From Afipia sp. (lineage in GTDB: Bacteria; Pseudomonadota; Alphaproteobacteria; Rhizobiales; Xanthobacteraceae): a stretch of 64,000 nucleotides of DNA. The notes beneath the pieces are model-generated. The model searched no databases. It saw only the letters and a program-made list of their open reading frames with translations, and was not told where the DNA came from. The stretch lies in assembly GCA_017474385.1 (NCBI GenBank), contig JAFVHU010000152.1, forward strand, positions 124,001 through 188,000, written 5' to 3'. Positions 32,252 to 49,241 of the stretch are shown here, in pieces; position 1 is the first letter of the stretch, and every line of letters starts with the position of its first letter. Position numbers and translations under genes: made by a program.

Positions 32252-33955
32252 CTACACGCCGAGTGCTCGCCCATCGCTCCGCGGATCGTGCGCTCCCGTG
32301 ATGCTTCCGTCGGCATTGATACGAATTGCGCCGGGATGTCCCGCAAGCGGGCTTTGAGCCGGAATCGGACTCATTTCGTGGCCGCGTTCCGCGAGTTTCT
32401 TGAACACCTCTTCGCCCGCGTCCTTCTCCAGTTTCAGGCTGTCGCGTGAATCGGAGAATGTCTTCCCGAGCAGGAAGCGAGGCCGCGAAAGCGCCGTGAG
32501 CGGATCCATGTTGTAGTCGATGAGCCTTGTGAGCACGGCCGCGAGCGTTTGCGGCTGGCCGTCGGCACCCTGCGTTCCATATAGAAGATGAGGCCGTCCC
32601 TGCTTGAGATACATGCCCGGATTAAGCGTGTGGAACGGGCGCTTGCCAGGCTTGAGACAGTTGGGACTCGCGGGATCGAGATTGAATGAGGCACCGCGGT
32701 TGTGCCACAGGATGCCGGTATCGCCCGCGATCATGCCGCTGCCCCAGTCGAAATAGACGGTCTGAAGCATGCTGACGCAGTTGCCGTTCTGGTCGGTCGC
32801 GGCGATGTAAACCGTGTCGCCTTTCTTGAACACGTGCGGCCAGGGCAGCGCCTTTTCCATACTGATGGCTTTGGCGTGTGCGTCGAGGCTATCTTTTGAA
32901 AGCAGCCGATTGACGGGAACGTCGGTGAATTCAGGATCGGCAATATACCGATTGCGGTCGATGAAGGCATACTTCACGGCTTCGACCATCAGATGATAAT
33001 GATCCGCGCTGCCTTCCGGATATTTTGCAAGGTCGAAGCGATCGAGGATGCCCATGATCTCAAGGGTGGTGATGCCTTGCGTTGGCGGGCGAAGCCCGAT
33101 CAGTTCGCCATCGCGGTAGCCGACACGCAGGGGCGCCTCGTCGCGGGCACGGCAGCGGGCGAGATCTTCCGCCGTCAACGGCGACCCAATTTTCTTCAGC
33201 CCGGCAGCGATGCGTTCCGCGAGCTTGCCTTCGTAGAAATCACGCCCGCCATTCGCCGCCAGCATTTCAAGCGACCCGGCAAGCTCCGGCTGCATCAGCG
33301 TCTCGCCGATTTCCGGCATCCGCCCGGTGGGCATAAAGATACGCTGAACATCCGGCCAGTCTTTTAGATTCTTCGTTTCGAATTCCTGCCAAAATCGCTG
33401 CGAAGGCGTAACCGGAAATCCCTTGCGGGCATACTCAATCGAGCGTTCGAACAGCGAAGCCCAGCTCAGCTTGCCGCCCCAGGACTTGCGGCTGAAATCG
33501 AAAGCCTGATCCCAGGTATCCACAGTAGCGGCAGCGGTCAGCGCCGATCCTGGCCCCCGTACCGGAACGCTGCCGCTGTAGTTCGGGGGATTGGCGGCCG
33601 CCTGACCGACGCCTGATAACGTCCGCACGTTACCCTTGCGATCGCTCATGATCATAAAGGCGTCGCCGCCAAGTCCGGTGAAGTGCGGATAGGTCACGCA
33701 GAGCGTGGCGCCGATGGCGATAGCCGCCTCGATGGCGTTGCCTCCCTTTCGCAACACCTCCAGGCCCGCCTGAGTGGCGAGTTCGTGCGGACTCGTGACC
33801 ATGCCTTTGGTCGATTGTGCCAGAGCACCGGTATTGGATAACGCGTGAACCGGACCCGGCATCGCAGCCGCGACGGCGGCAAAGGCCGATGTAACAAGCA
33901 ACTCACGCCGTGAGATATTCCCGCTGCGTCGATCGAAGAGCCCAACGTTGGTCAT
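32252..33955 (-). CDS. Gamma-glutamyltransferase-family Ntn hydrolase (copy 1)
   Basis: 567 residues with a Tat-like leader (SRRELLVTSAFAAVAAAMPG). GGT features are GMVTSPHELATQAGLEVLRK at the N-terminus, GLGGDAFMIM, and the autoprocessing site with the candidate nucleophile Thr in GDTVYIAATDQNGN near residue 380. FDWGSGMIAGDTGILWHNRG and YGTQGADGQPQT follow. The family self-cleaves and hydrolyses or transfers gamma-glutamyl or related amides. The residue just before the conserved Asp differs from the TTHYSVVD pattern of classical GGT, as in GGT-like acylases, so the substrate may not be glutathione. It ends the operon with the carbamate kinase and AllFG homologues. Confidence 0.85.
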   Translation of the reverse strand: MTNVGLFDRRSGNISRRELLVTSAFAAVAAAMPGPVHALSNTGALAQSTKGMVTSPHELATQAGLEVLRKGGNAIEAAIAIGATLCVTYPHFTGLGGDAFMIMSDRKGNVRTLSGVGQAAANPPNYSGSVPVRGPGSALTAAATVDTWDQAFDFSRKSWGGKLSWASLFERSIEYARKGFPVTPSQRFWQEFETKNLKDWPDVQRIFMPTGRMPEIGETLMQPELAGSLEMLAANGGRDFYEGKLAERIAAGLKKIGSPLTAEDLARCRARDEAPLRVGYRDGELIGLRPPTQGITTLEIMGILDRFDLAKYPEGSADHYHLMVEAVKYAFIDRNRYIADPEFTDVPVNRLLSKDSLDAHAKAISMEKALPWPHVFKKGDTVYIAATDQNGNCVSMLQTVYFDWGSGMIAGDTGILWHNRGASFNLDPASPNCLKPGKRPFHTLNPGMYLKQGRPHLLYGTQGADGQPQTLAAVLTRLIDYNMDPLTALSRPRFLLGKTFSDSRDSLKLEKDAGEEVFKKLAERGHEMSPIPAQSPLAGHPGAIRINADGSITGAHDPRSDGRALGV

Positions 33956-34078: not shown

Positions 34079-35044
34079 TCACGCATTCCGTACGATGTGT
34101 GTTCCGGTCTCGCCGCGAAGCGCGGGCATCGCATGATCGAGATGACTGATGATCGCGCGCTTGCCGCCGCCTTCGATAAAGCGGATCGCCGCATCGATCT
34201 TCGGTCCCATGCTTCCGGGCGGAAAATGTCCCTCCCGGTGATAGGCCTTGATTTCGTCGAGCGTCACCTCCGCAAGCTCCTTCTGGTTGGGCTTGCCGAA
34301 ATTGATCGCGACACGCGGCACCGCCGTCAGGATCAGCAGCTCGTCGATATCGAGCACGTTGGCGATGTGTGCTGACGTCAGATCCTTGTCGATGACCGCA
34401 GGTACACCGGTGCGCACGCCCTTCGCATCGCGGATCACCGGCATGCCGCCCCCGCCGCCGGCAATGACGATGGTCCCGCGCTTGACCAGTGCATCGACCA
34501 GCGAGATATCGCAGACATGCTTTGGTTTCGGCGACGGCACGACATGACGCCAACCGCGGCCTGAATCCTCGCGCATCGCCCAGTTGAGTTCCTTGCTGAT
34601 GTTCTTGGCTTCCTCTTCCGTGAAGAAGGGCCCGACAAACTTGGTCGGGTTGCGGAAGGCAGGATCGTCGGCATCGACTTCCACCTGGGTCAGAAGACTC
34701 GCGACGTGCCGTTGATTGCCCTGCTCCCGCAACGCGTTCTCGATCGCCTGCATCAGGAGATAGCCGATCCCGCCTTGGCTGTGGGCCACGCAGATGTCCA
34801 TCGACATCGGCGGAATGCGGCTCATGGTCAGCATCTGGCGCATCATGATCTTGCCGACGACGGGACCATTGCCGTGTGTGATCACCAGTTCATTATCGAT
34901 CTGGGCCAGCGGCAACAGCGCTTCCGCAGTCTGCTGAGCGACCGATTTTTGTTCTTCGGAGGTACCGCTGATGTCTTCCGGATGAACCGCGTTGCCGCCG
35001 ATCGCAATCACGAGGCGACGCGGAACTTCATTAAGTGTTCGCAT
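34079..35044 (-). CDS. arcC: Carbamate kinase
   Basis: 321 residues of the amino-acid kinase fold: RLVIAIGGNAVHPEDISGTS at the N-terminus, VITHGNGPVVGKIMMRQ, VIAGGGGGMPV near residue 215, VIDKDLTSAHIANVLDIDEL, and PGSMGPKIDAAIRFIEGGG near the C-terminus. It converts carbamoyl phosphate plus ADP to ATP, CO2 and ammonia. Its start overlaps the AllF-like gene's stop by 14 bases. In E. coli the equivalent AllK works with the oxamate carbamoyltransferase AllFGH. Confidence 0.93.
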   Translation of the reverse strand: MRTLNEVPRRLVIAIGGNAVHPEDISGTSEEQKSVAQQTAEALLPLAQIDNELVITHGNGPVVGKIMMRQMLTMSRIPPMSMDICVAHSQGGIGYLLMQAIENALREQGNQRHVASLLTQVEVDADDPAFRNPTKFVGPFFTEEEAKNISKELNWAMREDSGRGWRHVVPSPKPKHVCDISLVDALVKRGTIVIAGGGGGMPVIRDAKGVRTGVPAVIDKDLTSAHIANVLDIDELLILTAVPRVAINFGKPNQKELAEVTLDEIKAYHREGHFPPGSMGPKIDAAIRFIEGGGKRAIISHLDHAMPALRGETGTHIVRNA

Positions 35045-36563
35045 AACGGTTTACCTTCATGTCAGTGGTCGCGAGAGCAAGCACGAGTTCGCAGGCCTGC
35101 GCATTCGACGGCGCGACCATAACGCCGGCCTCTTCCAGACGCCGGACCTGTGCGGAGCGCACCTGCCGATCGAGTTCAGTGCCGGTCACCGAAGCGACAA
35201 TGATCGGCGCATTGTCAGCGCGATCTGCCACGATCTCCGCCAGGTGTGCGGCGGGATCGGCATGCGCGCCGTAGCCGATCACGAGATCGACGAGAATGAC
35301 CGCAACCTCGGGATCGACCAGTGCCGCGCGCAAGGCGTCGTCACGCACCGACGGATCGATCATGGGATGTGGCCGGCCCTGGGTATATTCGTCGGCTCCA
35401 AGATCGATGATCCGATCCAGGCCCGCGCTCTCCGGCGCATCGAGATAGGGAACGTTGGGAATCGCCGCGTTCGACGTCACCTGGCGTCCGCCTGCTCCAA
35501 GGATCACCTGCGCCTCGGCACAGAGCGTTCCTCCGGCAAACAGACCCTCGATCCGGCGCTCACCTCTGCGCCGGGGCAGGCGCGTGGCCAGCTTCGTGAC
35601 GTTGAAGTTGCCGCCGATGGTCCGGCCTCCGAGCGCGAGTTCGGCAGCATCCTTGAGCGTACGCGCGAAATTCGCATTCGGCGGAAGCTCAGCAGAAGCT
35701 GCGCCGATGAAGCACACCGTGTAGGGCTTCGGACTTCTGGCGATGCGTGCGATCACAACCTTCGCAACATCCGGATGCGGCGGCTTGGAAATCAGCACCA
35801 CGCGATCCGTCTCCGGATCGGCATCCAGCGCGTCCATCGCCATCAACGTCGTAATGCCGCCGATTTCCTTTTTCAGGTCACGGCCGCCCACGCCGATCGC
35901 ATGCGAGATGCCTTCGCCTGCTTCGGAGATCAGACACGAGACTTCCTGCGTCCCAGTTCCGGACGCGCCGATGATTCCGATCTTGCCGCGCTTCAACTTG
36001 TTGGCGAATGCCAGAGGCGCACCGCCGATGACGGCCGTGCCGCAGTCCGGCCCCATCATCAGCAGACCCAACTCGCGCGCATGCTGCTTCAGCGACAGTT
36101 CGTCTGTGATCGAGACGTTGTCGCTGAACATCAGCACGTGAAGTCCGCGGTTAAGCGCCTTGCGCGCTTCCGCCGCGGCGAATTCGCCGGGAACGGATAT
36201 CAGGGCCAGATTGGCGTCCGGCGTGGCCTTGACCGCTGCACCAATGCTGCGCGGCCGCCATGCAACCTCTCCCGAACTCTGGGTCTTCGGTTTGTCGAGC
36301 GCCTTGAGTGCATCGCCAAGCGCGTCCCGTGCGGCCTGTTCGCTCTCCGCCTTGACCGCAAGGATAAGATCGTTGCCTTGCGCAGCAACATCCCCGTCAA
36401 GAAGCCCTGCGTTGCGCATGATGGCGACGTTGGACGGCGTTCCCATCATCAGCGCGGCTTCGAGAATGCCGGGTGCCGACGCGATCTCACGCGACAGCCG
36501 CATCAGCGCGACGGAATCCAGATAGAAACCTTTTCGAATCTCATTCAGAACGAACGCGCTCAT
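35031..36563 (-). CDS. allF: FdrA/AllF-like subunit of oxamate carbamoyltransferase
   Basis: 510 residues. The succinyl-CoA-synthetase-like domains of FdrA are plain: VMRNAGLL-type N-terminus with ALMMGTPSNVAIM, ANLALISVPGEFAAAEA, GLLMMGPDCGTAVIGGAPLA, IGASGTGTQEVSCLI, GVGGRDLKKEIGGITTLMAM, and VDLVIGYGAHADPAAHL. E. coli AllF has a further C-terminal segment of about 50 residues; here the protein ends before it, and a similar segment is a separate gene at 37821-38018. It overlaps the AllG-like gene by four bases. With AllG and AllH it should transfer a carbamoyl group between an oxalurate-type donor and phosphate. Confidence 0.88.
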   Translation of the reverse strand: MSAFVLNEIRKGFYLDSVALMRLSREIASAPGILEAALMMGTPSNVAIMRNAGLLDGDVAAQGNDLILAVKAESEQAARDALGDALKALDKPKTQSSGEVAWRPRSIGAAVKATPDANLALISVPGEFAAAEARKALNRGLHVLMFSDNVSITDELSLKQHARELGLLMMGPDCGTAVIGGAPLAFANKLKRGKIGIIGASGTGTQEVSCLISEAGEGISHAIGVGGRDLKKEIGGITTLMAMDALDADPETDRVVLISKPPHPDVAKVVIARIARSPKPYTVCFIGAASAELPPNANFARTLKDAAELALGGRTIGGNFNVTKLATRLPRRRGERRIEGLFAGGTLCAEAQVILGAGGRQVTSNAAIPNVPYLDAPESAGLDRIIDLGADEYTQGRPHPMIDPSVRDDALRAALVDPEVAVILVDLVIGYGAHADPAAHLAEIVADRADNAPIIVASVTGTELDRQVRSAQVRRLEEAGVMVAPSNAQACELVLALATTDMKVNRYANT

Positions 36564-37810
36564 GATACCCCCAGATCTTTCGCAATGGCACGGACGGCTT
36601 GCTGGAAGCAGGCCATCGGCGCCTTCACCACGCCGGCACCCACCTGCCCGATCCCGGGCTCACGATGCGCGATCCCGGTATTGATGACGGGCGCCAGTCC
36701 GGTTTCGACCACCAGCCGCACATCGATTCCCGTCGGAACGCCGGCGAAGTCGAGTGCTGCGATCGTCCATTCAGGATTCTGGCCCGCGGTGATTTCACCC
36801 ATCGCCCGGGTAAAATTTCCCGCTGACGACGGCGCGCCCGCGCCGATGAATCCGGCGACTGCGGGCGACGCAGCCATGGCGAAACCACCAAGGCCGATAG
36901 TCTCAACAATGGCGGAGTCACCCATGTCGGGGTTGGCGTCCTTTTCGGAATAGCCCGCGAAATAAAGCCCCTCCGGCATTTCGACCGGCGCGGTGAACCA
37001 CTGGTCGCCGAGACCGCTGACCCGCACGCCGAAGTCGGTGCCGTTGCGGCACATGGCGGTGACGATGGTCGAACCGCGAATGCCCTTCGCCGGATCGGTC
37101 ATCGCTTTGCCCATCGCCATCGCGATGTTGAGAAAGAACTGATCGTTCTGCGCAATGAAGGCGATGCAATCGGCGAGAACTTCGTTGTCGGTCGAGGTTC
37201 GCGCCAGCGACGGCCCCACCTCTCTCAGAAAAACGCTTGAGCAGGCAAGATTGCGCTGATGCATCTCGTCGCCCATCGAGAGACCGCGCGCGATGATCGA
37301 CTTGAGCTCGATGCCGCCGCGCGCCCGGATCGCCTTGGCGAGGACCGGTCCAAACACGTCACGCAGCCAGGCCAGACGCGCCAGCACGCTCGCGTCATTC
37401 CCGCCGAAACGCATCACCTTCCCGAGCCCCTCGTTGATCGCGCAATAGGCGCGGTTCGAGAACCGGGTGTTCTCGACGACGAAGAGCGGCATCGAGACAG
37501 TCGTCATGCCGGTCATCGGACCGACTGCGCCGAAATGATGGTTCGGATGAAATTCGATACCGCCGCTCGCGGCCAATTCGGTGGCGGCATCGAGATCCGG
37601 CGCCCAGCCTTCAAAGACGATCGCGCCGGCGACCGCGCCGCGCATCGGACCGCACATCTTGTCCCAGGTGATCGGTGGCCCGGCGTGGAGGACCATCCGG
37701 TCCTTCAATCCCTTCAACACCTCACGCGCCGGAACGATGTCGATCAGCTTCGGCTCGCCTTCCAGAATGCGCGCCAGCGCCTGCTTGTTTGCTTCCTCGA
37801 TCAATTTCAT
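36560..37810 (-). CDS. allG: YlbE/AllG-like (DUF1116) subunit of oxamate carbamoyltransferase
   Basis: 416 residues from ATG 37810 (MKLIEEANKQALARILEG), with GGAGG six bases upstream. Family blocks are VLHAGPPITWDKMCGPMRGA, ATELAASGGIEFHPNHHFGA, GLSMGDEMHQRNLACSSVFL, and RVSGLGDQWFTAPVE. E. coli YlbE has about 50 extra N-terminal residues; here that portion is missing and its equivalent is the small gene just upstream. It overlaps allF by four bases. Confidence 0.88.
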   Translation of the reverse strand: MKLIEEANKQALARILEGEPKLIDIVPAREVLKGLKDRMVLHAGPPITWDKMCGPMRGAVAGAIVFEGWAPDLDAATELAASGGIEFHPNHHFGAVGPMTGMTTVSMPLFVVENTRFSNRAYCAINEGLGKVMRFGGNDASVLARLAWLRDVFGPVLAKAIRARGGIELKSIIARGLSMGDEMHQRNLACSSVFLREVGPSLARTSTDNEVLADCIAFIAQNDQFFLNIAMAMGKAMTDPAKGIRGSTIVTAMCRNGTDFGVRVSGLGDQWFTAPVEMPEGLYFAGYSEKDANPDMGDSAIVETIGLGGFAMAASPAVAGFIGAGAPSSAGNFTRAMGEITAGQNPEWTIAALDFAGVPTGIDVRLVVETGLAPVINTGIAHREPGIGQVGAGVVKAPMACFQQAVRAIAKDLGVS

Positions 37811-37820
37811 GAACGCCTCC

Positions 37821-38018
37821 TCATACACCGAGCTTCGCAAGCAGCGCAGCCATCGCAGGATCACCACCAGCCGGCGGCGACCAGTCGACATGGACGACCT
37901 CGATGTCGCAGTCGCGCAGATCCTTCACGAAGCCTTCAAGTCCGACGTTCACGACTTTCACGTCGCTCGTCAGCAGGGCCTGGTACGGCATATTTTTCTC
38001 GATTGCCACGAACGTCAT
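37821..38018 (-). CDS. Free-standing FdrA/YlbE accessory domain (65 aa)
   Basis: 65 residues, MTFVAIEKNMPYQALLTSDV then KVVNVGLEGFVKDLRDCDIE and VVHVDWSPPAGGDPAMAALL. From memory of E. coli, the same VINxGLxxF ... xWSPxAGG pattern forms the C-terminal end of FdrA and the N-terminal end of YlbE. Here it is its own gene with GGAGGA directly before ATG 38018; since that spacer is very short, GTG 38009 may be the true start. It ends ten bases before allG, in the same direction. It leads the operon and lies just downstream of a palindromic operator. Confidence 0.75.
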   Translation of the reverse strand: MTFVAIEKNMPYQALLTSDVKVVNVGLEGFVKDLRDCDIEVVHVDWSPPAGGDPAMAALLAKLGV

Positions 38019-38048: not shown

Positions 38049-38066
38049 AGTAAGAAAATTCTTACT
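38049..38066. promoter_or_regulatory. Palindromic operator, site 1 (allGFK operon)
   Basis: AGTAAGAAAATTCTTACT: perfect 8-bp arms around a two-base centre, 31 bases upstream of the small-domain gene. The same palindrome recurs at 39878 and 41074, with a weaker relative at 44468, so it is probably the binding site of one regulator, most simply the TetR protein at 41206-41955. Confidence 0.75.
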
Positions 38067-38262: not shown

Positions 38263-39855
38263 CTATCGCGCAGCGACCACGCCATCGCTGCGAGGATCGC
38301 TTGCGCCTTCGAGCAATCCGTCCGGATGCCAGACGATTGCGCCCGCGTGTCCCATGAATTCCTCGAACGGCCCAACAACCTGTACATCGTGCCCGAGACG
38401 GCGCATGGCCTCGATCGTTCCGGGATCGAATCGGGATTCGATTTTGAGGTTGTTGTTTTCCTCACCCCACGTCCGGCCCAACAGCCAGCGCGGAGCAGTG
38501 ACCGTCGACTGGAGGTCTTGGCCATGCAGCGCATAACGCGAGAAAATTGCAGCCTGCGTTTGAGGTTGCCCTTCACCGCCCATCGTGCCGTAGGACATCA
38601 GGCGGCCGTCGCTCAACTCCGCCATGGCAGGCTGGATGGTATGAAATGGAAGTCGCGACGGTTTCAGCGAGTTTGCATCGCCCTCGGCAAGGCTGAAGCT
38701 TGTTCCGCGATTTTGCCAGGTCACGCCGGTTTGCGGAAGAACGACACCCGAACCGAACTCCCAATAGATGCTCTGAATGAAGCTGACGTTGAGACCGCTG
38801 CGATCGGTTGCGGCGAGCCAAACCGTGTCGCCATGCTTTGACGGGTCTGGCCACGGCGCAGCACGCTCGGTCGCAACAGTTTTGTCGAGAGCAGCAAGCG
38901 ATTCCCCCGTCAGGAAGTCGGCCGCAGCGCGCTCCATGTAGTCGGGATCCGTCACATGCCGATTGCGGACACGGAATGCGGCTTTGGTGCACTCAACCAG
39001 CCGGTGAAGATGATCGATGCCATCTGCCTCGTTGGCAATGCGCCGCGCGTAAAGTCCGAGGATCAAGAGCGACGCAAGACCCTGCGTCGGTGGCGGCATA
39101 TTGAAGACCTTGTTGCCAGCCACATCGAGAGACAACGGGGTTACCAGTGTGGCCTGATGACGCTCAAGGTCGGCCAGACGAAGCGGGCTGCCGGCCTTTT
39201 CAAGATCCGCAGCAATCGATCGGGCGAGATCACCGCGATAGAAATCCGACAGGCCTGCTTGCGACAAGCGCGCGAGGGTATCGGCGACGCGAGGCTGCCG
39301 CAGCTTTGAACCGACAGCGAGCGGAGCGCCGTTCGGCAAATAAACATCGGCGAAGCCCGGAACATCCTGCAACTCCGGATGCTTCTTCTTTATGTTTTCG
39401 TGGAGTGTTTGCGGAACCGGCACCCCTTCCCATGCATAGCGGATCGCGTCCTGCAGAAGACGCGACATCGGCAACCGGCCGCCATGCTGCCGGCGGCTGA
39501 GATTTTGCGCCTTCTCCCAGCCGTCGACGGTGCCTGCAACAGTCAGCGCCGCCAGCGGACCGCGCCCGGGAATGGCCGCGCACCCGCGCTCCCGATACCA
39601 GTTGCGATCGGCAGCCATCGCGGAGCGTCCGCATGCCTGAATTCCGATCGGCGCCGATCCCGGCTTGCCGATAAGCCAGAAACTATCACCGCCGAGACCG
39701 TTCATGTGCGGATAGACGACGGCGATTGCCGCAGCCGAGGCAATCATTGCTTCAATCGCATTGCCGCCGTCGGACAGAACGGAAAGACCAGCCTGGGCCG
39801 CGAGGTGATGCGGCGCCGTAACCATGCCTCGGTAGCTTCTCTTCGTCTGCAACAT
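38263..39855 (-). CDS. Gamma-glutamyltransferase-family Ntn hydrolase (copy 2)
   Basis: 530 residues, without an obvious signal peptide (MLQTKRSYRGMVTAPHHLAA). GLGGDSFWLIGKPGSA, GDTVWLAATDRSGLN (candidate nucleophile Thr near residue 345), WEFGSGVVLPQTGVTWQNRG and YGTMGGEGQPQTQAA mark the family. It is clearly a paralogue of copy 1, but cytoplasmic in appearance, suggesting the two act on either side of the membrane or on different intermediates. It has its own upstream operator and stands between the allGFK operon and the AllH-like gene. Confidence 0.85.
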   Translation of the reverse strand: MLQTKRSYRGMVTAPHHLAAQAGLSVLSDGGNAIEAMIASAAAIAVVYPHMNGLGGDSFWLIGKPGSAPIGIQACGRSAMAADRNWYRERGCAAIPGRGPLAALTVAGTVDGWEKAQNLSRRQHGGRLPMSRLLQDAIRYAWEGVPVPQTLHENIKKKHPELQDVPGFADVYLPNGAPLAVGSKLRQPRVADTLARLSQAGLSDFYRGDLARSIAADLEKAGSPLRLADLERHQATLVTPLSLDVAGNKVFNMPPPTQGLASLLILGLYARRIANEADGIDHLHRLVECTKAAFRVRNRHVTDPDYMERAAADFLTGESLAALDKTVATERAAPWPDPSKHGDTVWLAATDRSGLNVSFIQSIYWEFGSGVVLPQTGVTWQNRGTSFSLAEGDANSLKPSRLPFHTIQPAMAELSDGRLMSYGTMGGEGQPQTQAAIFSRYALHGQDLQSTVTAPRWLLGRTWGEENNNLKIESRFDPGTIEAMRRLGHDVQVVGPFEEFMGHAGAIVWHPDGLLEGASDPRSDGVVAAR

Positions 39856-39877: not shown

Positions 39878-39895
39878 AGTAATAATATTTTTACT
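39878..39895. promoter_or_regulatory. Palindromic operator, site 2 (second GGT gene)
   Basis: AGTAATAATATTTTTACT inside the longer ATAAGTAA-N8-TTACTTAT inverted repeat (39875-39898), 23 bases upstream of the gene starting at 39855. It matches sites 1 and 3 in arms and spacing. Confidence 0.75.
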
Positions 39896-40062
39896 TATAT
39901 ATCGTCAAGGGCCTTTTGGAGTGAGCGAACCCGCCCCCCAGATGCGCGAACGCTTCATGCGGCATCAAAAGGCATCGACTGTGAACCCGCAGAGAAAGAA
40001 CTGCTCCGGGGGTGCGCCCGGAGCAGCCAAGTTGGGAGAAAGTCTGTTGGAATGTGGTGGTG

Positions 40063-41205: not shown

Positions 41206-41955
41206 TTAAACGAGGTTGGACGCTTTTCCCTGCACGGGCGAAAGTTTCGGTGAAGGCACCTTCTTCCCGTCCTTGCGCGACGCATCGGGAACCGTCAGCC
41301 ACGCCATGATGACATCGTGCGCGTGCCTGCGGCGGTCTTCAAGCCAGTTCGGATCGCCCAGATCCTTGTCGAACATCAGCGACAGCGTGTGCCGGTTCGA
41401 CACATGGAAATAACTGAACGCCGTAATCGTCACGTAGAGCTGGATCGGGTCCACCCCGCCGCGGAAAATTGCGGCCGCCACGCCGCGCCGCAGAATGTTC
41501 TCGATGTTGGATACAAGCGGCATCGTCAGCGCGGCGATCTTGCGGGATTTGCGAAGATATTTTCCGCGCTGCAGATTCTCCGTGTTGATCATCGCGATGT
41601 AATCTTGGTGATTCTGGAAGAACGTGAACGTAAAATCGACCAGTTCACGCAGAGCCCCCGCGGGATCGAGGCTGTCGAGATTAAGCTGCTGCTCGGCGGC
41701 ACGGATATCCGTATAGACGTGTTCCAGAGCAGCCAGATACAGCCCGTCCTTGTCGCCGAAGTAATGATACAGCAGGCGCATGTTGGCCTTCGCGCGATGC
41801 GCAATCGCGTCGACGCGCGCCCCGCCAAGTCCGTTCCGACAGAACTCATAAGTCGCAGCTTGCAGAATCGATTCCTTGGTGAGGGCGGAATCCCGTTTGC
41901 GCTTGCCGCCGGCGGCTTTCTTACGTGCGGGCTTCTTTGCTGACGTCTCATTCAT
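41206..41955 (-). CDS. TetR-family transcriptional regulator
   Basis: 249 residues. The Lys/Arg-rich tail (MNETSAKKPARKKAAGGKRK) precedes a TetR DNA-binding domain at residues 25-75 (SILQAATYEFCRNGLGGARV ... MRLLYHYFGDKDGLYLAAL). The C-terminal ligand and dimer domain is about 165 residues. It lies centrally among the genes that carry the shared palindrome and is the only regulator encoded there, so it is the best candidate to bind those sites. The inducer is unknown. Confidence 0.87.
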   Translation of the reverse strand: MNETSAKKPARKKAAGGKRKRDSALTKESILQAATYEFCRNGLGGARVDAIAHRAKANMRLLYHYFGDKDGLYLAALEHVYTDIRAAEQQLNLDSLDPAGALRELVDFTFTFFQNHQDYIAMINTENLQRGKYLRKSRKIAALTMPLVSNIENILRRGVAAAIFRGGVDPIQLYVTITAFSYFHVSNRHTLSLMFDKDLGDPNWLEDRRRHAHDVIMAWLTVPDASRKDGKKVPSPKLSPVQGKASNLV

Positions 41956-42151: not shown

Positions 42152-43357
42152 TCAACGCGCATCGGAGATCGTCGCGCCGTTGCGGGCGACCAGCCGGCCG
42201 GCTTTATAGACGTCGCGGGGTTTGGGCCGCGCGATAACCGCCTCCTGAACATGCTGCGCATCGATTACGAGAAAATCCGCAGGTCCGCCTTCCGCAAGAC
42301 CATACCCCTCAATATTGAGGGCTCGCGCCGCCTGTGACGTCACCATGTCGAATGCAAGCGTGAGTTCCGCGTCGGTATTGAAGCCCGAGCAATATCCCAC
42401 GATCATCGCCCGTTCGAGCAGATCGCCGTCGCCATAAGGCCACCAGGAATCGCGAATGTTGTCGTTGCCCGCGAAAACATTCACGCCGGCTTCGTGAAGC
42501 AACAGGACCGGCGGAAAGGCATGGGCGCCGGGGGCATTCGTCAGAATCGAAACCCCCGCCTCCGCGAGCTGATTTGCCGTCCGCTGCGCGACATCACGTG
42601 GAACCTGACCCAGCGCATAGGCGTGACTGATCGTCACCCTGCCGCCAAGCCCGACCGCCTTCGTGCGCCGCGCGATCTCCTCGATTTCGAACACACCGAG
42701 CAGATCGCCGTCGTGCAGATGGATGTCGATGCCGACGCCATGACGCTCCGCGACGTCGAAGATAGCATCGAGATGTCCCGCGATATCCCCGTCGTAGCCA
42801 GCCGGATCGAGACCTCCGACAAGATCGGCCCCGTTGCGGACGGCCTCGTTGAGCAATTCGCGCGTGCCGGGCGCGGTCACGATGCCGCTTTGCGGAAAGG
42901 CGACAATCTGGATCGACACCTTGTTCCGATGTGCGTCACGCGCCGCCGCCACCTGTTCAAGGTTACGCAATCCGATCTGTGGATCGATATCGACGTGGCT
43001 GCGCATGTGGGTCGTTCCTTGCGAAACGCACAGTTCGATCAGGCCGGCGGCGCGTACGGGAATCGGCTTCGCCTTGGCAAGTGCCTGTTTCTCAAACTCG
43101 ACCCGTTCGCGGACGTTGAAGCCTGCGGTGCACAGCCGATGCGGCTTCCATTCGTCGCCGATGAAACCCTTGTCGAGATGGATATGGCCGTCCACCAGAC
43201 CCGGCAGCACGAGGCGATGTTTGAGATCGGAACTTTCACGTGCCGCAATGCGCAGACCGGCTGCGATAGCGGAAATGCGCCCGTTCTTCACGGCGATATC
43301 GACCGTTCGCCCATCGGACAGTCGTGCATTTTGAAACAGCGTGTCGATATCGGTCAA
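42152..43357 (-). CDS. CodA-like metal-dependent amidohydrolase/deaminase
   Basis: 401 residues of the amidohydrolase fold. Metal and catalytic residues are seen in VDGHIHLDKGF near residue 57, MRSHVDIDPQIG, IDIHLHDGDLLGVFEIEE, TISHAYALGQV, and AGNDNIRDSWWPYGDGD (the Asp of the GxDNxxD type). These match cytosine deaminase CodA and related N-substituted amidine or amide hydrolases. In this locus it probably opens or deaminates a cyclic ureide or pyrimidine-like ring. The gene follows the deacetylase-like gene on the same strand. Confidence 0.85.
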   Translation of the reverse strand: MTDIDTLFQNARLSDGRTVDIAVKNGRISAIAAGLRIAARESSDLKHRLVLPGLVDGHIHLDKGFIGDEWKPHRLCTAGFNVRERVEFEKQALAKAKPIPVRAAGLIELCVSQGTTHMRSHVDIDPQIGLRNLEQVAAARDAHRNKVSIQIVAFPQSGIVTAPGTRELLNEAVRNGADLVGGLDPAGYDGDIAGHLDAIFDVAERHGVGIDIHLHDGDLLGVFEIEEIARRTKAVGLGGRVTISHAYALGQVPRDVAQRTANQLAEAGVSILTNAPGAHAFPPVLLLHEAGVNVFAGNDNIRDSWWPYGDGDLLERAMIVGYCSGFNTDAELTLAFDMVTSQAARALNIEGYGLAEGGPADFLVIDAQHVQEAVIARPKPRDVYKAGRLVARNGATISDAR

Positions 43358-43420: not shown

Positions 43421-44416
43421 TCATGACTGGATGATTCCTTCCGGGAGTGTCCGACAATAATCGGCGATACCTCCAGCCGTGGTGATCCAGATGTCGCTGC
43501 GCTTCGCGACGATGGTTTGCAGCGCACGCCGCAGCGGCCGCAGACGATGCGGCTGGCCCACCAGATAAGGATGCAGCGCGATGCCCATCACGAGCGATTG
43601 CTTCGTCGATTGCTCCAGCATTTCCTCGAAGTTGTCGACGATCATTTGTGCAAACTGCTCGCCCGAATCCTTCCGGCCGACGATGGAAGGAATGTCGTTC
43701 AACTCCTGCGGATACGGCACCGATAGAATTTTCCCGCCATTGCGGGTTGAAAACCAGATCGGCTGATCGTCCATGCACCAGTCGAGCAGATAGCCGTAAC
43801 CGGCCTCGGCCAACAAATCCGGCGTGAGGTGGGATTGCGAAATCCACGGTCCGAGCCAACCTGCCGGCTGGCGCCCCTCAGCGTCAGAGATCACCGCAGT
43901 GCACTCGGCGATCAGTTGCCGCTCTTCCGCTTCGAGCAATATTCCCTGCCGCTCGGAATTTGTCCGCCCATGACCGACCACCTCGGATCCGCGCTTCCGA
44001 AAAGCATCCATCACTTCCGGGCAGTAGTGGTAGATGCTGCTGTTCGCGAGCACTGACACGGGCAGCGACAACTCGTCGAAAAGATCGATCAGCCGCCAGA
44101 CACCAACCCGATTGCCGTAGTCGCGCCAGGCATAATTCAGAACATCCGGATGCGGCCCTCCGGGACACAGCTCGGCTCCCAGCCCGTCGCCGAATGTAAA
44201 ATGCTCAAGATTCAGGCCGATATAGACCGCGAGGCGCTTGCCGTCCGGCCAGTTGAAATCGGGCCGGTTGACGATCGCGCTGTAGCCATATCGCCCGTGC
44301 GAAGGAACCTCGAAGACCTTGCCGGCGCGCGAACGCAATTGATTTTTCGGACTGCTCGAAGCATCGGCAACTGCCCCAGATATGGGCACATTCTGCTCCT
44401 CAGTCGGCTTGGACAT
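43421..44416 (-). CDS. PuuE-like polysaccharide-deacetylase-fold hydrolase
   Basis: 331 residues from ATG 44416 (MSKPTEEQNVPISGAV), with AAGGAG nine bases upstream. The NodB/deacetylase fold is recognised by WPDGKRLAVYIGLNLEHF, DYGNRVGVWRLIDLFDEL, EVVGHGRTNSERQGIL, GWLGPWISQSHLTPDLLAEA and MGIALHPYLVGQPHRLRPLR. These resemble metal-independent allantoinase PuuE rather than peptidoglycan deacetylases. It probably hydrolyses a cyclic amide or ureide. It is divergent from the importer gene at 44578. Confidence 0.83.
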   Translation of the reverse strand: MSKPTEEQNVPISGAVADASSSPKNQLRSRAGKVFEVPSHGRYGYSAIVNRPDFNWPDGKRLAVYIGLNLEHFTFGDGLGAELCPGGPHPDVLNYAWRDYGNRVGVWRLIDLFDELSLPVSVLANSSIYHYCPEVMDAFRKRGSEVVGHGRTNSERQGILLEAEERQLIAECTAVISDAEGRQPAGWLGPWISQSHLTPDLLAEAGYGYLLDWCMDDQPIWFSTRNGGKILSVPYPQELNDIPSIVGRKDSGEQFAQMIVDNFEEMLEQSTKQSLVMGIALHPYLVGQPHRLRPLRRALQTIVAKRSDIWITTAGGIADYCRTLPEGIIQS

Positions 44417-44467
44417 TTTTGAAAACTCCTTCAAAGTGATTATGGCCGCTTGACATTCCGACTATAG

Positions 44468-44485
44468 TTGAAGAAAGTTTTTACT
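44468..44485. promoter_or_regulatory. Weaker copy of the shared operator, site 4
   Basis: TTGAAGAAAGTTTTTACT keeps the right arm TTTTTACT and the inner AAGAA of the left arm of sites 1-3. It lies between the PuuE-like gene (start 44416) and the importer binding protein (start 44578), so it could serve both. Confidence 0.5.
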
Positions 44486-44577
44486 TCCGTCAAGTTCGCG
44501 AAACGATGAGCGGCGGAAATGCTGGCGAGTTTGTTCTCGATACGGAGAGCGACCGCCTTATCGGGAGGAATAACAGA

Positions 44578-45786
44578 ATGCGCTACAATTCGACATCATC
44601 GAACCGTGCCTTTTCTCGTCCTTCGTTCCTGCAAGGCGTGATGGGCGCGGCCTTCGCGGCAACACTGGCCGTTTCACCGGCTCACGCCGCCGACCCTATC
44701 AAGATTGGTCTCGTCACTGCCCTTTCCGGTCAATCGGCACGCGCTGGGGAAGCTCTGACTCGCGGAGCCACCATCGCCATCGAAGAGATCAACGCCAAGG
44801 GCGGCGTTCTCGGCCGGCCACTTGAACTCGTGCGCCGCGATGACGAAAGCAATCCGGCGAAAGGACTCATCGCCGCACGCGAGTTGATCCAGCGTGAGAA
44901 GGTTTCAGCCCTGCTCGGCGGCCTCGACACGCCGGTTGCTCTCGCGATCGTGCCGTTCGTCAACAACGCCAAGATGCCATTCGTCGTGCCATGGGCTGCT
45001 GGCACCAACATCACGCAGAACGGCGCCGCCGACAACTATGTGTTCCGTGTCTCCGCGATGGATGATGAAGTCGACAAGGCCATCGTCCAGTTCGCCCGCA
45101 AGACCTACGACACCAAAAAGCCCGGCCTGATCCTGGTCAACAATCCGTGGGGCGAGTCGAACGAGCATGGCCTCAAGGCAGCCATGAAAGCATCTGGCAC
45201 TGAGCCCGCCGGCATCGAGAAGTTCGAAGGCAACGACGTCGATGTCGTGCCGCAGCTTTCGCGCTTGAAGCAGGCAGGCGCCGATACGTTGTTCCTGGTC
45301 GGTAACGTCGGCCCCGCTTCGCAGGTGGTGAAGTCGCTCGACCGGATGGGATGGGCTCCGCCGATCGTCTCGCATTGGGGTCCCGCCGGCGGGCGCTTCA
45401 CCGAACTTGCAGGCCCGAATGCCAAGAACGTGATTTTCGTTCAGACCTACAGCTTCTTCGGCGACCTCTCGCCCGTCGGCAAGAAAGTCATCGCGGCACT
45501 GCAGGCGAAGTATCCGGACATCAAGGGTCCGGCTGACATCACACCCGCCGTCGGCGTTGCCAACGCCTACGACTCGGTCCTCGTCATTGCGAAAGCAATC
45601 GAGAAGGCCGGCAAGGCAGAGCCGGTCGCAATTCGCGACGGCCTCTATGCAATCGACCGTGTCGACGGCCTGATCAAGACCTATGACAAGCCGTTCACGA
45701 AGACGAAGCACGATGCGCTCACGGAGAACGACTACATCTGGACGCGCTTCGAGGACAACCACATCCTGCCGTTCGTGAAGAAGTAA
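44578..45786 (+). CDS. Branched-chain-type ABC substrate-binding protein
   Basis: 402 residues from ATG 44578, with GGGAGG nine bases upstream; the frame is open from 44506 but lacks a second site. A signal peptide ends near SPAHAAD. The mature protein begins DPIKIGLVTALSGQSARAGE and has the Peripla_BP_6 layout (RRDDESNPAKGLIAARELIQ, GGLDTPVALAIVPF, VNNPWGESNEHGLKAA). Such proteins bind amino acids, amides, urea or aromatic acids. Its neighbours suggest an amide or ureide ligand. Confidence 0.87.
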   Translation: MRYNSTSSNRAFSRPSFLQGVMGAAFAATLAVSPAHAADPIKIGLVTALSGQSARAGEALTRGATIAIEEINAKGGVLGRPLELVRRDDESNPAKGLIAARELIQREKVSALLGGLDTPVALAIVPFVNNAKMPFVVPWAAGTNITQNGAADNYVFRVSAMDDEVDKAIVQFARKTYDTKKPGLILVNNPWGESNEHGLKAAMKASGTEPAGIEKFEGNDVDVVPQLSRLKQAGADTLFLVGNVGPASQVVKSLDRMGWAPPIVSHWGPAGGRFTELAGPNAKNVIFVQTYSFFGDLSPVGKKVIAALQAKYPDIKGPADITPAVGVANAYDSVLVIAKAIEKAGKAEPVAIRDGLYAIDRVDGLIKTYDKPFTKTKHDALTENDYIWTRFEDNHILPFVKK

Positions 45787-45822
45787 ACCGGCTCGTTAGC
45801 CGACAACCAAGGCGGTCAGCAC

Positions 45823-46698
45823 ATGTCACTTCTTCCTGCGATCATCACAGGACTGGCGCTCGGCAGCATGTACGGGCTGCTCGCGCTTGGCTTTCACGTT
45901 ACTTACGCCGTATCCGGCACGGTGAACTTCTCCCAGGGCAGCTCGATGACCCTGGGAGCCGTTGCCGGATACTTTTTCCTGGTTCTGTGGGGCTGGCCGG
46001 GTGCTCTCGGCATTCCGGCTGTCCTCGCGATCTGCGCCCTGTATGGCCTCATCATCGAACGCTATGCCGTGCGTCCGTTCGTGCAGCGCGGATCGGACAA
46101 CTGGCTGATGGCGACCGTCGCCGTCGGCATCATCGTCGATAACCTGATGCTGTTTGTGTTCGGCAAGGAGCCCCGCGGCTTTCCCTCGATACTCGCGGTG
46201 AAGCCTATCCAGATCGTCGAAGGAGCGGGCGTCTATCCGCTTCAGCTTCTGATCCCGGTCATCGGCCTCCTGCTGGCAACGGCGCTTCATCTTTTCACCC
46301 GCCGGACGCGCCACGGCGTCGCCATGCTCGCCGTCGTGCAAAATCCGGGAGCAGCGCGCCTGATGGGCATCGATGTCGGCCGCGCCATCGCTGCAAGCTA
46401 CGCGGCGTCAGCGGTTCTCGCCGGGATCGCCGCGCTCTTGATCGCACCGCTGTTCAACGTCTCTTCAGAAATGGGCACGCTGTTCGGCATCAAGGCATTT
46501 GCCGCCGCGATCATCGGAGGCCTCGGCAGCGCATGGGGCGTGATGCTGGCCGGACTTTGTCTCGGTCTCATCGAGGTGTTCGCCACCAGCTATCTCGGCT
46601 CGGTTTACACACAGATCATCACATTCGCTTCCGTCATCGTGATTCTCGTCGTTCTGCCTCACGGGCTGCTCGGCCGCGCTGGAGTGAAAAAGGTATGA
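45823..46698 (+). CDS. livH: Branched-chain-type ABC permease LivH
   Basis: 291 residues with about eight membrane helices. The start ITGLALGSMYGLLALGFHVT, the NFSQGSSMTLGAVAGY segment, and the GLGSAWGVMLAGLCLGLIEV block near the C-terminus are typical of LivH. It is 36 bases downstream of the binding-protein gene and overlaps the next gene by ATGA. Confidence 0.92.
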   Translation: MSLLPAIITGLALGSMYGLLALGFHVTYAVSGTVNFSQGSSMTLGAVAGYFFLVLWGWPGALGIPAVLAICALYGLIIERYAVRPFVQRGSDNWLMATVAVGIIVDNLMLFVFGKEPRGFPSILAVKPIQIVEGAGVYPLQLLIPVIGLLLATALHLFTRRTRHGVAMLAVVQNPGAARLMGIDVGRAIAASYAASAVLAGIAALLIAPLFNVSSEMGTLFGIKAFAAAIIGGLGSAWGVMLAGLCLGLIEVFATSYLGSVYTQIITFASVIVILVVLPHGLLGRAGVKKV

Positions 46699-49241
46699 CT
46701 TCCCGCACGTCTCTTCTCATCGGCGTCGCCGCACTTGCGATCGCCCTTAGCTATACCGCGGTCGCCGACAGCTACGCGGTGTTTCTCATCGCTACGATCT
46801 CACTGACCGCGATAGCCTGCATCGGCCTGAATGTCCTGCTCGGACTGGCGGGCCAGATCTCGCTGGGACACATCGGCTTCATGGCAATCGGCGCCTACAC
46901 GACGGTGCTTCTGATGGAAAAGGCCGGCTGGCCTTATCTGGCAGCTACAGGCGCGGGTATCGTCCTCGTCAGCATCATCGGTGGTCTTCTTGCCATGCCG
47001 GCGCTGCGCGTCCGGGGCCCGTACCTGGCCATGGTCACGATTGCGTTCGGTTTCATCGTCGAACACGGCACCATCGAATGGCGCGATCTCACCGGCGGCG
47101 GCAACGGCCTCGTCTTGACCGTTCCGCCGAGCATTTTCGGCATGCCCTTGTCGGAACGCGGCCTCGCCATCGCCAGCGTCGCCTTGATGTTTGCCGGCGT
47201 CATCCTGTTCGACCGGCTGAAGCGCAGCGGCTGGGGCTATGCCATGCGTGCCGCTCGCGACTCCGAAGTTGCAACACGCTCGGTCGGCATCGACCTCGTC
47301 CGCGTGCGCACCATGGCTTTTGTCATTTCCGCGGCAGCCATGGCGCTGGCAGGATCATTGTTCGCTCCGCTTCAGGGCTATATCAGCCCTAGCTCGTTCC
47401 CTTTCCTGCAATCGATCTTGTTGCTGTTCGGCGTCATGATCGGCGGAGCTGGATCGGCTCTCGGCCCGGTCATCGGTGCAGTGCTTGTCGTACTGCTGCC
47501 CGAACTTCTATCGGATCTGGCGGAATACCGTCTGCTCGCGTTTGGGCTTTTGCTGTTCGCCGTTCTACGTGTTGCTCCGAACGGGGTTGCGGGCCTGGTC
47601 GGACAACTCGTTGCAAGGTTCATTCCGGCGTCGCAGCGACAATCCCGTGCGGAAGGTGTGGCCATGATCGGCGACCCCGGTGCCGGGCTTCGTGTGGAAA
47701 ACAAAAACGCTCCCCCGCTCAACGTGACGGATCTGTCGATCGCGTTCGGCGGTGTCCGCGCGGTGCAGAACGTGTCGTTTACCGCTCAGCCCGGTCACGT
47801 CACGAGCGTGATCGGTCCCAACGGCGCTGGCAAGACGAGCGCGCTCAACCTGCTTTGCGGGTTCTATCGGCCAACTACGGGTACGGTGAAACTCGGTGAT
47901 CGTGACCTGACCGGCCTGCCCTCGCACACCCTCGCCCGCGCCGGCGTGGCGCGGACATTTCAGACCACGCAGCTGTTCGGTTCGCTCACCATCATCGAGA
48001 ACACGCTGCTCGCCGAAACCGCCGGCAAGCTCGGCGGCATCGTCTCACCGCTGCGCAATCCGGACACGGAGCGTTTCGCGCGATCGCTGCTGCGGTTCGC
48101 AGGTGTCGATGGCGACCTCGACCGGCCGGCGGAATCACTGCCGCATGGCGAGAAGCGTCTGGTCGAAATCGCGCGCGCATTGGCGTTGCGGCCGAAAGTT
48201 CTGCTTCTTGACGAGCCTGCCGCCGGCCTGTCGAAAGGCGACAAGCACCGCCTGACCACGCTGCTGCGCCGCATCGCAGATCTCGGTGTCGCCGTGATCA
48301 TTGTCGAGCACGATATGCCGATGATCATGTCGTTGAGCGATCACATCGTGGTGCTCGATGGCGGCAAACGCATCGCCATCGGCGAGCCCGCGGCCATCCG
48401 GAACGATCCTCTGGTCCGGAAAGCCTATCTCGGCGATGCCACGGCGAGCGAGCAGCACCACCGTCCCGCACGTCAGACCGGGCAAGAGACTGTGCTGGAT
48501 ATCAAGAAGCTCGATGCGTTCTACGGCCTGTCGCAGGCGCTCGAAAACATCAACGTGGTTGTCGGCAACGGCGAAGCCATCGCGGTGCTTGGTGCAAACG
48601 GCGCCGGCAAAACCACACTGATGCGCTCGATCGCGGGACTGGAGCCGCCGCGTGCAACCGGCGAGATTTCGCTCTCCGGCAAACGTATCGACAATCTGCC
48701 TGCGCATGCACGAGCCCGTATCGGTGTTGTGCTGGTGCCGGAAGGACGGCAGGTATTCCCGGAACTCACCGTCCGGCAGAACCTGCAGCTTGGAGCCTAT
48801 GCCCGCACAGGTATTGATCTCGATGCCGAAGTCGAAGCCATGCTGACCCGCTTCCCACGCCTGAACCAGCGCATCGATCACCGCGCCGGTCTTCTCTCCG
48901 GTGGTGAACAGCAAATGCTGGCCGTCGCCCGCGGCCTGCTGACGTCCCCGAAGGTGCTGATGCTGGATGAACCCTCGCTCGGTCTCGCGCCGCTTGTGGT
49001 CGATGAGCTCTTTGCGTCGTTCGAACGCCTCCGCGTTGAAGGCATGACGCTGATTGTCGTCGACCAGATGGCCGGACAGGCTCTTGCGCTGGCTGACAGG
49101 GCCTATCTCCTGGAGACGGGCGCCGTTGTGAAAAGCGGCACGGCGGAAACCATCGCAGAGGACCCCTCGCTGGAAGCTGCCTATCTGGGAGGGGAGGCTA
49201 AGACCAGCGGCGCTGATCAAAGGATCGTGGTCGGGGCTTGA
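46695..49241 (+). CDS. LivM-LivG-LivF triple fusion ABC transporter protein
   Basis: 848 residues in one uninterrupted frame from ATG 46695. Residues 1-310 are a LivM permease (GLNVLLGLAGQISLGHIGFM, LRVRGPYLAMVTIAFG). Residues about 345-580 are a LivG-type ATPase (Walker A GPNGAGKTSALNLL, signature LPHGEKRLVEIARAL, Walker B VLLLDEPAAGLSKGD, H-loop VEHDM). Residues about 600-830 are a LivF-type ATPase (GANGAGKTTLMRSI, LSGGEQQMLAVARGL, MLDEPSLGLAPL, switch VVDQM). The linkers are roughly 30 and 20 residues. LivM-LivG fusions are known; all three in one chain is unusual. With LivH and the binding protein it completes the importer. Confidence 0.9.
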   Translation: MTSRTSLLIGVAALAIALSYTAVADSYAVFLIATISLTAIACIGLNVLLGLAGQISLGHIGFMAIGAYTTVLLMEKAGWPYLAATGAGIVLVSIIGGLLAMPALRVRGPYLAMVTIAFGFIVEHGTIEWRDLTGGGNGLVLTVPPSIFGMPLSERGLAIASVALMFAGVILFDRLKRSGWGYAMRAARDSEVATRSVGIDLVRVRTMAFVISAAAMALAGSLFAPLQGYISPSSFPFLQSILLLFGVMIGGAGSALGPVIGAVLVVLLPELLSDLAEYRLLAFGLLLFAVLRVAPNGVAGLVGQLVARFIPASQRQSRAEGVAMIGDPGAGLRVENKNAPPLNVTDLSIAFGGVRAVQNVSFTAQPGHVTSVIGPNGAGKTSALNLLCGFYRPTTGTVKLGDRDLTGLPSHTLARAGVARTFQTTQLFGSLTIIENTLLAETAGKLGGIVSPLRNPDTERFARSLLRFAGVDGDLDRPAESLPHGEKRLVEIARALALRPKVLLLDEPAAGLSKGDKHRLTTLLRRIADLGVAVIIVEHDMPMIMSLSDHIVVLDGGKRIAIGEPAAIRNDPLVRKAYLGDATASEQHHRPARQTGQETVLDIKKLDAFYGLSQALENINVVVGNGEAIAVLGANGAGKTTLMRSIAGLEPPRATGEISLSGKRIDNLPAHARARIGVVLVPEGRQVFPELTVRQNLQLGAYARTGIDLDAEVEAMLTRFPRLNQRIDHRAGLLSGGEQQMLAVARGLLTSPKVLMLDEPSLGLAPLVVDELFASFERLRVEGMTLIVVDQMAGQALALADRAYLLETGAVVKSGTAETIAEDPSLEAAYLGGEAKTSGADQRIVVGA

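Follow-up and report, generated by a model that had tools for sequence, protein, structure and literature searches.

A predicted TetR-controlled island for oxalurate in Afipia that pairs AllFGH-type carbamoyltransferase genes with an HpxW-like gene

Introduction

What feeds an oxamate carbamoyltransferase whose genes stand apart from those for allantoate and ureidoglycolate, and what becomes of the oxamate that it would release? The question is raised by a catabolic island in a 64,000-nucleotide stretch of Afipia sp. (contig JAFVHU010000152.1; the window in what follows, to whose first letter all positions refer), in which homologues of AllF, AllG and AllH and a carbamate kinase occur together with two proteins of the gamma-glutamyltransferase (GGT) family, a PuuE-like and an AtzC-like hydrolase, a TetR regulator and a Liv-type importer. 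The answer that we consider probable, judging by sequence comparison, is that the island serves to scavenge nitrogen from oxalurate and is repressed by TetR; in it AllFGH, the carbamate kinase and one of the GGT-family proteins, here called HpxW-like, would form a complete route from oxalurate via oxamate to oxalate, two NH3, CO2 and ATP. This tail joins known reactions in a new combination. It is in the front end, which would supply the oxalurate (importer, PuuE-like and AtzC-like proteins), that the undescribed route proposed in a preliminary description of the stretch may still be found, with cyclic ureides or carbamoyl-type compounds as possible substrates.

In E. coli the carbamoyltransferase was assigned to genes, allFGH, only in 2024, and an excerpt of that work describes it with three genes (PMC11326118). 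The source assembly of the island comprises 4,476,985 bases in 162 contigs, of which contig C71 carries the island, and is estimated to be 84% complete. The 20 proteins encoded at 27995-54264 were scanned against Pfam and NCBIfam, and the island was compared with 80 loci containing AllG and, at the level of whole genomes, with 242 genomes of the family. Since only 42 of the 80 loci span at least 20 kb and many of the others are cut, genes missing from them are partly lost to contig ends; some of the fetched loci are one genome taken twice (for example L080 and L104), and their genes were called with a codon-usage script. The identity required within a locus was at least 45% for HpxW-like, 30% for AtzC-like, 60% for PuuE-like and 40% for TetR proteins; the identity thresholds of the genome-level comparison were chosen post hoc, after gaps in the lists of matches had become visible.

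The carbamoyltransferase module

The genes named in the preliminary description are all present as open frames, and its assignment of AllF, AllG, AllH and a carbamate kinase stands: all four pass their family cut-offs, AllF with 496.3 bits in NF004760 (cut-off 433), AllG with 306 in PF06545 (27), AllH with 68.6 in PF11392 (25) and the kinase with 373.6 in TIGR00746 (358.25). AllG is 50% identical to AllG and 48% to YahG of E. coli, AllF 43% to AllF and 41% to YahF, the carbamate kinase 44% to YahI and 39% to AllK, and AllH 29% to AllH over 171 residues; the AllG orthologues of Afipia massiliensis and A. birgiae are 96% identical to that of the island.

The AllG frame of 443 residues first given is 27 residues too long; its start should lie at 37810 (416 residues), and the excess reaches into a gene of 65 residues, at 37821-38018, that had been overlooked. 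The small protein, for which no Pfam model is found at E 0.01, resembles E. coli AllF (residues 507-554; 44% identity over 48 residues) and YahG (residues 3-43; 39% over 41), and aligns with residues 426-473 of FdrA (3dmy_A) at E 1e-6; the extra C-terminal domain of AllF is present here, as a free gene. A homologue occurs in 71 of the 80 AllG loci, and lies no more than about 160 bp upstream of allG in 69 of them (the exceptions are L035 and L057). Whether at the end of AllF (E. coli), at the start of YahG or free, this domain each time stands immediately ahead of the AllG part. We regard the 65-residue protein as a fourth carbamoyltransferase module, which, if this is true, would be fused to the enzyme in E. 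coli and split off here.

Other arrangements of AllG exist. In L009-L017, L019, L023 and further Bradyrhizobium loci allHGFK is followed by another AllF/AllG pair (for example L009:14033-18161; identity to the pair of the island about 41% and 50%). In L009 a gene for a BMP/PnrA-type binding protein (PF02608) comes next, an arrangement resembling the allFGHK and nucleoside importer genes of ammonia oxidisers that an excerpt of PMC12625717 describes. Two distinct AllG genes occur in locus L102 (G085:C51:98000-117999), separated by about 9.5 kb; between them lies a gene of cluster c64, to which the oxalate/formate antiporter gene of L115 also belongs. In L063, L067, L069, L071, L075-L077 and L079, six of these eight being labelled Nitrospinota or Nitrospinae, an AllG-like gene immediately follows an AtzC-like gene; AllF and the small domain were not found in these eight loci, whose AllG may work alone.

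The HpxW-like protein and the oxamate step

The occurrence of two GGT-family hydrolases had been taken to point to new gamma-glutamyl chemistry. Both do belong to PF01019, but the one at 38263-39855 scores 300.2 bits in TIGR00066, under the cut-off of 357.85, and is rejected as a gamma-glutamyltransferase; its closest solved relative is 5hft (5hft_A at E 2.2e-84, 5hft_B at E 9.3e-77), with 46.7% identity to the large chain and 62.7% (116/185) to the small one, and its Thr344 aligns to residue 1 of 5hft_B, so that the position of the catalytic threonine is kept. No leader is visible by eye. We take 5hft to be HpxW of Klebsiella, its PDB record itself being named gamma-glutamyltranspeptidase; the structure was reportedly described by Hicks and Ealick in 2016. 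As far as excerpts of the sources go, Klebsiella HpxW converts oxamate to oxalate and ammonium (PMC5270733), and hpxW is frequently misannotated as ggt (PMC3560190). With a protein closest to 5hft, and hpxW so often misread as ggt, the main reason given for novelty fails.

Since the protein matches 5hft best and shares a candidate operator with allH and the allG operon (see below), it would most simply perform the next known step, oxamate to oxalate and NH3; of the sequence evidence, the common operator speaks most strongly for a role in the AllFGH route. In the proposed route, which follows homologues studied elsewhere, AllF, AllG and AllH with the 65-residue protein would convert oxalurate and phosphate to oxamate and carbamoyl phosphate, carbamate kinase would turn carbamoyl phosphate and ADP into ATP, CO2 and NH3, and the HpxW-like protein would hydrolyse the oxamate; the oxalate could pass to an oxalyl-CoA decarboxylase, which is encoded elsewhere in the genome and scores over its cut-off. 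If true, AllFGH and an oxamate amidohydrolase together would yield ATP, two ammonia and oxalate per oxalurate.

The other GGT-family protein (32252-33955) passes TIGR00066 (382 bits), has a twin-arginine-like (Tat-like) leader by eye and is probably exported. Despite passing the gamma-glutamyltransferase cut-off it carries NRGASF and PFHT and so resembles 5hft; NRG.SF and PFHT are found in both proteins of the island, where 2e0w, which we take to be E. coli GGT, has QMDDF and PLSS, residues that presumably bind gamma-glutamate. With relatives of at least 60% identity in only 3 of the 80 loci, this is an accessory gene of the island.

HpxW-like genes also occur in other surroundings. A paralogue in the same genome (L115:8015-11043, on G000:C133), 54% identical to the island protein, lies directly after an oxalate/formate antiporter gene (TIGR04259, over its cut-off), and a gene pair from the same two clusters is found in L118. 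In L109 and L110 (genus g31) adjacent HpxW-like and AtzC-like genes stand beside an acyl-CoA-ligase-like gene.

Shared operators

Control by the TetR protein, a guess in the preliminary description, is now very probable, and best founded for three transcription units. Three near-identical 18-bp palindromes of the form AGTAA-N8-TTACT (Table 1) lie directly upstream of exactly allH, hpxW and the operon of the small gene, allG, allF and allK; with up to one mismatch allowed, shuffling leads one to expect none in the window. A search of the whole assembly with the tighter pattern AGTAANNANATTNTTACT and one mismatch, which sites with another middle escape, returned these three places only, and the reversed pattern, as a control, one match. 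Relatives with a different gene order still have similar sites ahead of allH, hpxW and the genes of the allG operon. When 24 exact sites in the 80 loci are used to train a matrix, 54 positions in these loci (the 24 included) score above our own threshold of 12, against a mean of 3.28 and a maximum of 7 over 50 local shuffles; except for L027, the sites in Bradyrhizobium (TetR in 14 loci) deviate from the core pattern and lie outside the training set. An operator-like site above this threshold occurs in each of the 29 loci with a TetR homologue and in 5 of the 51 without one (L005, L006, L018, L032 and L040, the first three on cut contigs).

For the AtzC-like, PuuE-like and importer genes there is only a weak conserved site, TGAAGAAANTTTTTACTT, which occurs in 24 of the 123 fetched loci (Afipia and Bradyrhizobium, with some loci the same genome twice) and, where the gap is readable, always lies in the divergent promoter that separates the importer from the PuuE-like or AtzC-like gene; in L036 a full operator site is found at the TetR/importer spot. 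TetR would repress allH, hpxW and the small gene-allG-allF-allK operon via the three operators, and perhaps the divergent promoter of importer, PuuE-like and AtzC-like genes through the weaker fourth site, and an intermediate of the pathway would release it. If this is true, the regulon defined by the operators is a cheap reporter for the natural inducer, and hence for the substrate of the front end.

The front end and its counterpart in relatives

The PuuE-like protein bears its name in so far as its best PDB matches are 1z7a and 3cl6 (PuuE), to the latter of which it is related in sequence; with 122.3 bits in TIGR03212 it stays far under the cut-off of 424.6, on which ground an identity as PuuE allantoinase is rejected, and it is probably a ring-opening amidase. 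The hydrolase first called CodA-like is an amidohydrolase, but its nearer match is AtzC (6nbo, N-isopropylammelide isopropylaminohydrolase; E 4.5e-86), with cytosine deaminase (1k6w) at E 1.4e-35; it passes NF004636 (546.9 bits, cut-off 408), a model that names no substrate, and cytosine deaminase (CodA) is rejected with 195, 151 and 143.9 bits against NCBIfam cut-offs of 438, 483 and 403. It is 35% identical to E. coli YahJ over 348 residues; of the E. coli amidohydrolases compared, only YahJ gives an alignment that covers most of the protein (CodA and SsnA stood outside the comparison). The Liv-type importer is present as described, with binding protein, LivH and LivM-G-F at 44506-49241; relatives of the binding protein at 50% identity or more occur in 25 of the 80 AllG loci. 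LivM is fused to the ATPases LivG and LivF in one polypeptide, with a true start probably at about 46.69 kb, where livH ends, and since several relatives (L021, L022, L104-L107) have the same fusion, of about 830-860 residues, it is probably no assembly error.

The co-occurrence check proposed in the preliminary description shows the gene set to be conserved beyond the strain, in Afipia, in Bradyrhizobium, which keeps it in a different order, and partly in further Alphaproteobacteria. Of the 80 AllG loci 70 have AllF, 60 AllH, 58 AllK, 36 an HpxW-like gene, 32 an AtzC-like gene, 29 TetR and 19 a PuuE-like gene. Orthologues of the PuuE-like protein (at least 80%) and of AllG (at least 84%) occur in the same 10 of the 242 genomes, from four genera, and lie within 7 kb on one contig in 8 of the 10; AtzC orthologues (at least 74%) are present in these ten genomes and G009, HpxW orthologues (at least 82%, the family-wide search for HpxW-like proteins being too unspecific for this use below that value) in eight of the ten and G009. 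In the home genus both PuuE and AllG are found in 6 of the 22 sampled genomes; the trait is thus patchy.

Relatives point to another way of supplying the module. In 19 of the 80 loci it is accompanied by relatives (at least 40%) of the M20 enzyme, the class-V aminotransferase, or both, of locus L034; the M20 enzyme exceeds the NF006775 cut-off for allantoate amidohydrolase, and the best NCBIfam matches of the aminotransferase remain under theirs. The sequence suggests for the latter a ureidoglycine-glyoxylate aminotransferase, an enzyme characterised as PucG in B. subtilis (excerpt of PMC10163214), and loci of this type likely fit a route from allantoate via ureidoglycine to oxalurate. The 32 loci with an AtzC-like gene (22 of them with a Liv importer gene at 50% or more) and the 19 with allantoate-route genes have no locus in common, which would have a chance of about 1e-5 were the loci independent, which they are not, kinship being ignored in this figure. 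Because the two never share a locus, the AtzC-like and PuuE-like proteins would supply the same substrate, oxalurate, and with the importer they have the appearance of an alternative front end, which would draw on another starting compound: the importer would take up a ureide, whose ring the two hydrolases would open and from which they would strip an amine or imine group, leaving oxalurate. Hydantoin-type compounds fit this combination of ring-opening and amine or imine removal, and oxidised purines are a fair guess for the starting material. A more specific version, which we hold to be quite unlikely, makes the front end an undescribed route from chemically oxidised purines to oxalurate, in which the AtzC-like protein would for example hydrolyse the imine of a guanine damage product of the guanidinohydantoin or iminoparabanate type, and the PuuE-like protein would open parabanate or a hydantoin ring of similar kind; with such a route in place of the allantoate route of its relatives, the island would draw nitrogen and ATP from photo-oxidised urate and guanine. 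The neighbours of PuuE homologues of 60-70% identity that lack AllG (L091-L097) gave no hint of a substrate. If two front ends do serve one tail without being seen together, the question of the substrate of AtzC/YahJ and yahEFGHIJ becomes testable.

Alternative readings

Several observations weigh against an oxalurate island of this composition. AllH is weakly conserved; G160 and G149, two of the ten genomes with AllG and PuuE orthologues, have no HpxW orthologue at 82% or more, and the AtzC match of G149 lies on a separate contig; G009 has orthologues of AllG, AtzC and HpxW without one of PuuE. AllF and the small gene are both missing from eight of the 32 AtzC loci, which may represent a different system. 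The AtzC-like and PuuE-like genes have no strong operator, and TetR occurs with no site above the threshold in L105, which is a cut contig not among the 80 loci. HpxW-like proteins are common, occurring in 141 of the 242 family genomes at E <= 1e-150, and the paralogue on G000:C133 scores slightly above the island protein against 5hft (304/271 against 287/262 bits), so that the HpxW label fits the subfamily and not the island gene alone. Lastly, an HpxW-like gene adjoins an AtzC-like one in eight genomes of genus g31 without an AllG match at E <= 1e-150; the pair may therefore have a job of its own, in a separate two-enzyme route.

The last of these points also bears on the alternative that survives best, which nevertheless seems unlikely, namely that the AllFGH-type enzyme acts on a different N-carbamoyl compound, as YahEFG may, and the HpxW-like protein cuts the matching amide, oxalurate and oxamate not being the natural pair. 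AllG and AllF are nearly equidistant from the All and Yah sets of E. coli, the carbamate kinase is nearer to YahI than to AllK, and the amidohydrolase aligns with YahJ, all as this alternative would have it; it fits less well that distant AllGFKH units with HpxW adjoin allantoate-amidohydrolase-like genes (in the one tested, the NF006775 cut-off is passed) and that oxamate is the compound from which Klebsiella HpxW frees oxalate and ammonium.

The ordinary allantoin pathway, with the PuuE-like protein as allantoinase and with AllC and either a ureidoglycine aminotransferase or a ureidoglycolate dehydrogenase encoded elsewhere, is in our view very unlikely. The preliminary description had noted the lack of allantoate and ureidoglycolate enzymes, and none is found among the 20 scanned proteins, unlinked AllC not having been searched for; this, together with an assembly only 84% complete, leaves the pathway some room, as do the inclusion of allantoinase in the fold family of the PuuE-like protein, the linkage of AllC-like and aminotransferase genes to the module in relatives, and class-V aminotransferases (24-33% identity, partial alignments) in the AllG-bearing genomes G007, G009 and G012. 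Against it stand the low PuuE score, the absence of AtzC-type and AllC-type front ends from any common locus among the 80, and the lack of a match to the L034 aminotransferase in the island's own, 84% complete, genome. OHCU decarboxylase was found neither there nor in G007, G009 and G012, for which reason a whole urate route in the island's genome, as far as assembled, is rejected; imported allantoin would not require this enzyme.

That the two GGT-family enzymes cleave a gamma-glutamyl amide or the like, with the rest following, as first proposed, is hardly credible, since for all the Tat-like leader and the TIGR00066 score of the accessory protein, the HpxW-like one misses that cut-off and aligns best to 5hft, both depart from 2e0w in the motifs named above, and the accessory gene is rarely linked to AllG.

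Comparison with known systems

The oxalurate route favoured here shares all four families with E. coli allFGH and allK, for oxamic transcarbamylase and catabolic carbamate kinase (excerpt of PMC11326118). The island differs in having no allBCDE-type genes, in an AllF without the C-terminal piece, which is the separate gene ahead of allG, in its regulator (TetR against AllR/AllS), in its importer, and in a linked HpxW-like gene that could consume oxamate, a compound listed for E. coli, in an excerpt of PMC3364942, as a dead-end metabolite. The closest set found in a model organism is E. coli yahEFGHIJ, which has genes for a DUF2877 protein, AllF-like and AllG-like proteins, carbamate kinase and the YahJ amidohydrolase in one row, as in the island; unlike in the island, the annotation of the 14 kb fetched shows no gene for HpxW, a PuuE-like protein, TetR or a Liv protein, and the small domain is fused to YahG instead of free. 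No described function for it was found in the titles and abstracts searched. Streptococcus (Enterococcus) faecalis, reportedly studied in this respect by Vander Wauven in 1986, would, going by the title of that work, share with the island an oxalurate catabolic pathway with controls of its own.

Klebsiella hpxWXYZ, the oxalurate and oxamate part of urate degradation, has the HpxW-type oxamate amidohydrolase in common with the island; there the amidohydrolase HpxY splits oxalurate (excerpt of PMC12625717), which would give no carbamoyl phosphate, whereas AllFGH of the island would save ATP. None of the 20 proteins scanned in the island and next to it belongs to the amidase family. Comammox and archaeal ammonia oxidisers, according to the same excerpt, have allFGHK without upstream purine genes, as does the island, linked there to biuH, biuret and triuret genes and BMP nucleoside-type importers and here to HpxW, AtzC, PuuE and Liv genes (PMC12625717). 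A description of allFGH joined to hpxW in one cluster was not found in the titles or abstract beginnings searched.

Layout of the island

The minus strand carries all the catabolic genes and tetR; from 44.4 to 32.3 kb they follow one another as PuuE-like, AtzC-like, tetR, allH, hpxW-like, small gene, allG, allF, allK and second GGT-family gene. The importer lies on the plus strand, divergent from them across a gap of 71 bp (Table 1).

Table 1. Genes, candidate operators and a terminator-like hairpin of the island, with positions in the window.
Feature	Position	Strand	Evidence
Liv-type ABC importer, periplasmic binding protein	44506..45786	+	PF13458, 210.6 bits
LivH-type permease	45823..46698	+	PF02653
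LivM-LivG-LivF, single polypeptide	46533..49241	+	PF02653 at 83-345, two PF00005 stretches, one frame
Weak operator-like site, PuuE-like/importer divergent promoter	44465..44488	.	matrix score 2.9; TGAAGAAANTTTTTACTT
PuuE-like hydrolase	43421..44434	-	TIGR03212, 122.3 bits; PDB 1z7a, 3cl6
AtzC/YahJ-type amidohydrolase	42152..43357	-	NF004636, over cut-off; PDB 6nbo
TetR-family regulator	41206..41955	-	PF00440, PF17938
Candidate operator 1, 40-57 bp upstream of allH	41074..41091	.	AGTAATAATATTCTTACT
AllH (DUF2877), putative oxamate carbamoyltransferase subunit	40063..41034	-	PF11392, 68.6 bits
Terminator-like hairpin 3' of allH	39999..40028	-	12-pair stem, T-rich tail
Candidate operator 2, 23-40 bp upstream of hpxW-like gene	39878..39895	.	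AGTAATAATATTTTTACT
HpxW-like, putative oxamate amidohydrolase, GGT family	38263..39855	-	PF01019; best PDB match 5hft
Candidate operator 3, upstream of small gene and allG	38049..38066	.	AGTAAGAAAATTCTTACT
65-residue protein, free-standing AllF C-terminal/YahG N-terminal domain	37821..38018	-	alignment to AllF and YahG
AllG (DUF1116), start corrected	36560..37810	-	PF06545, 306.2 bits
AllF (FdrA), overlapping allG	35031..36563	-	NF004760, over cut-off
Catabolic carbamate kinase (allK), overlapping allF	34079..35044	-	TIGR00746, over cut-off
Second GGT-family hydrolase, accessory	32252..33955	-	PF01019 and TIGR00066, over cut-off

An Rfam scan of 31-51 kb gave no match at the gathering score, promoter-like sites in the region number 6, against 3.7 with a standard deviation of 1.8 in shuffles, and terminator-like ones, with 11 against 11.6, are not in excess. 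Close copies of the genes downstream of the importer stand beside the island in none of the 80 loci, which have only relatives of the AMP-binding ligase at 26-35% identity; these genes, on the minus strand at 49306-54264, encode an ADP-forming acyl-CoA ligase, a LysR regulator and the AMP-binding ligase.

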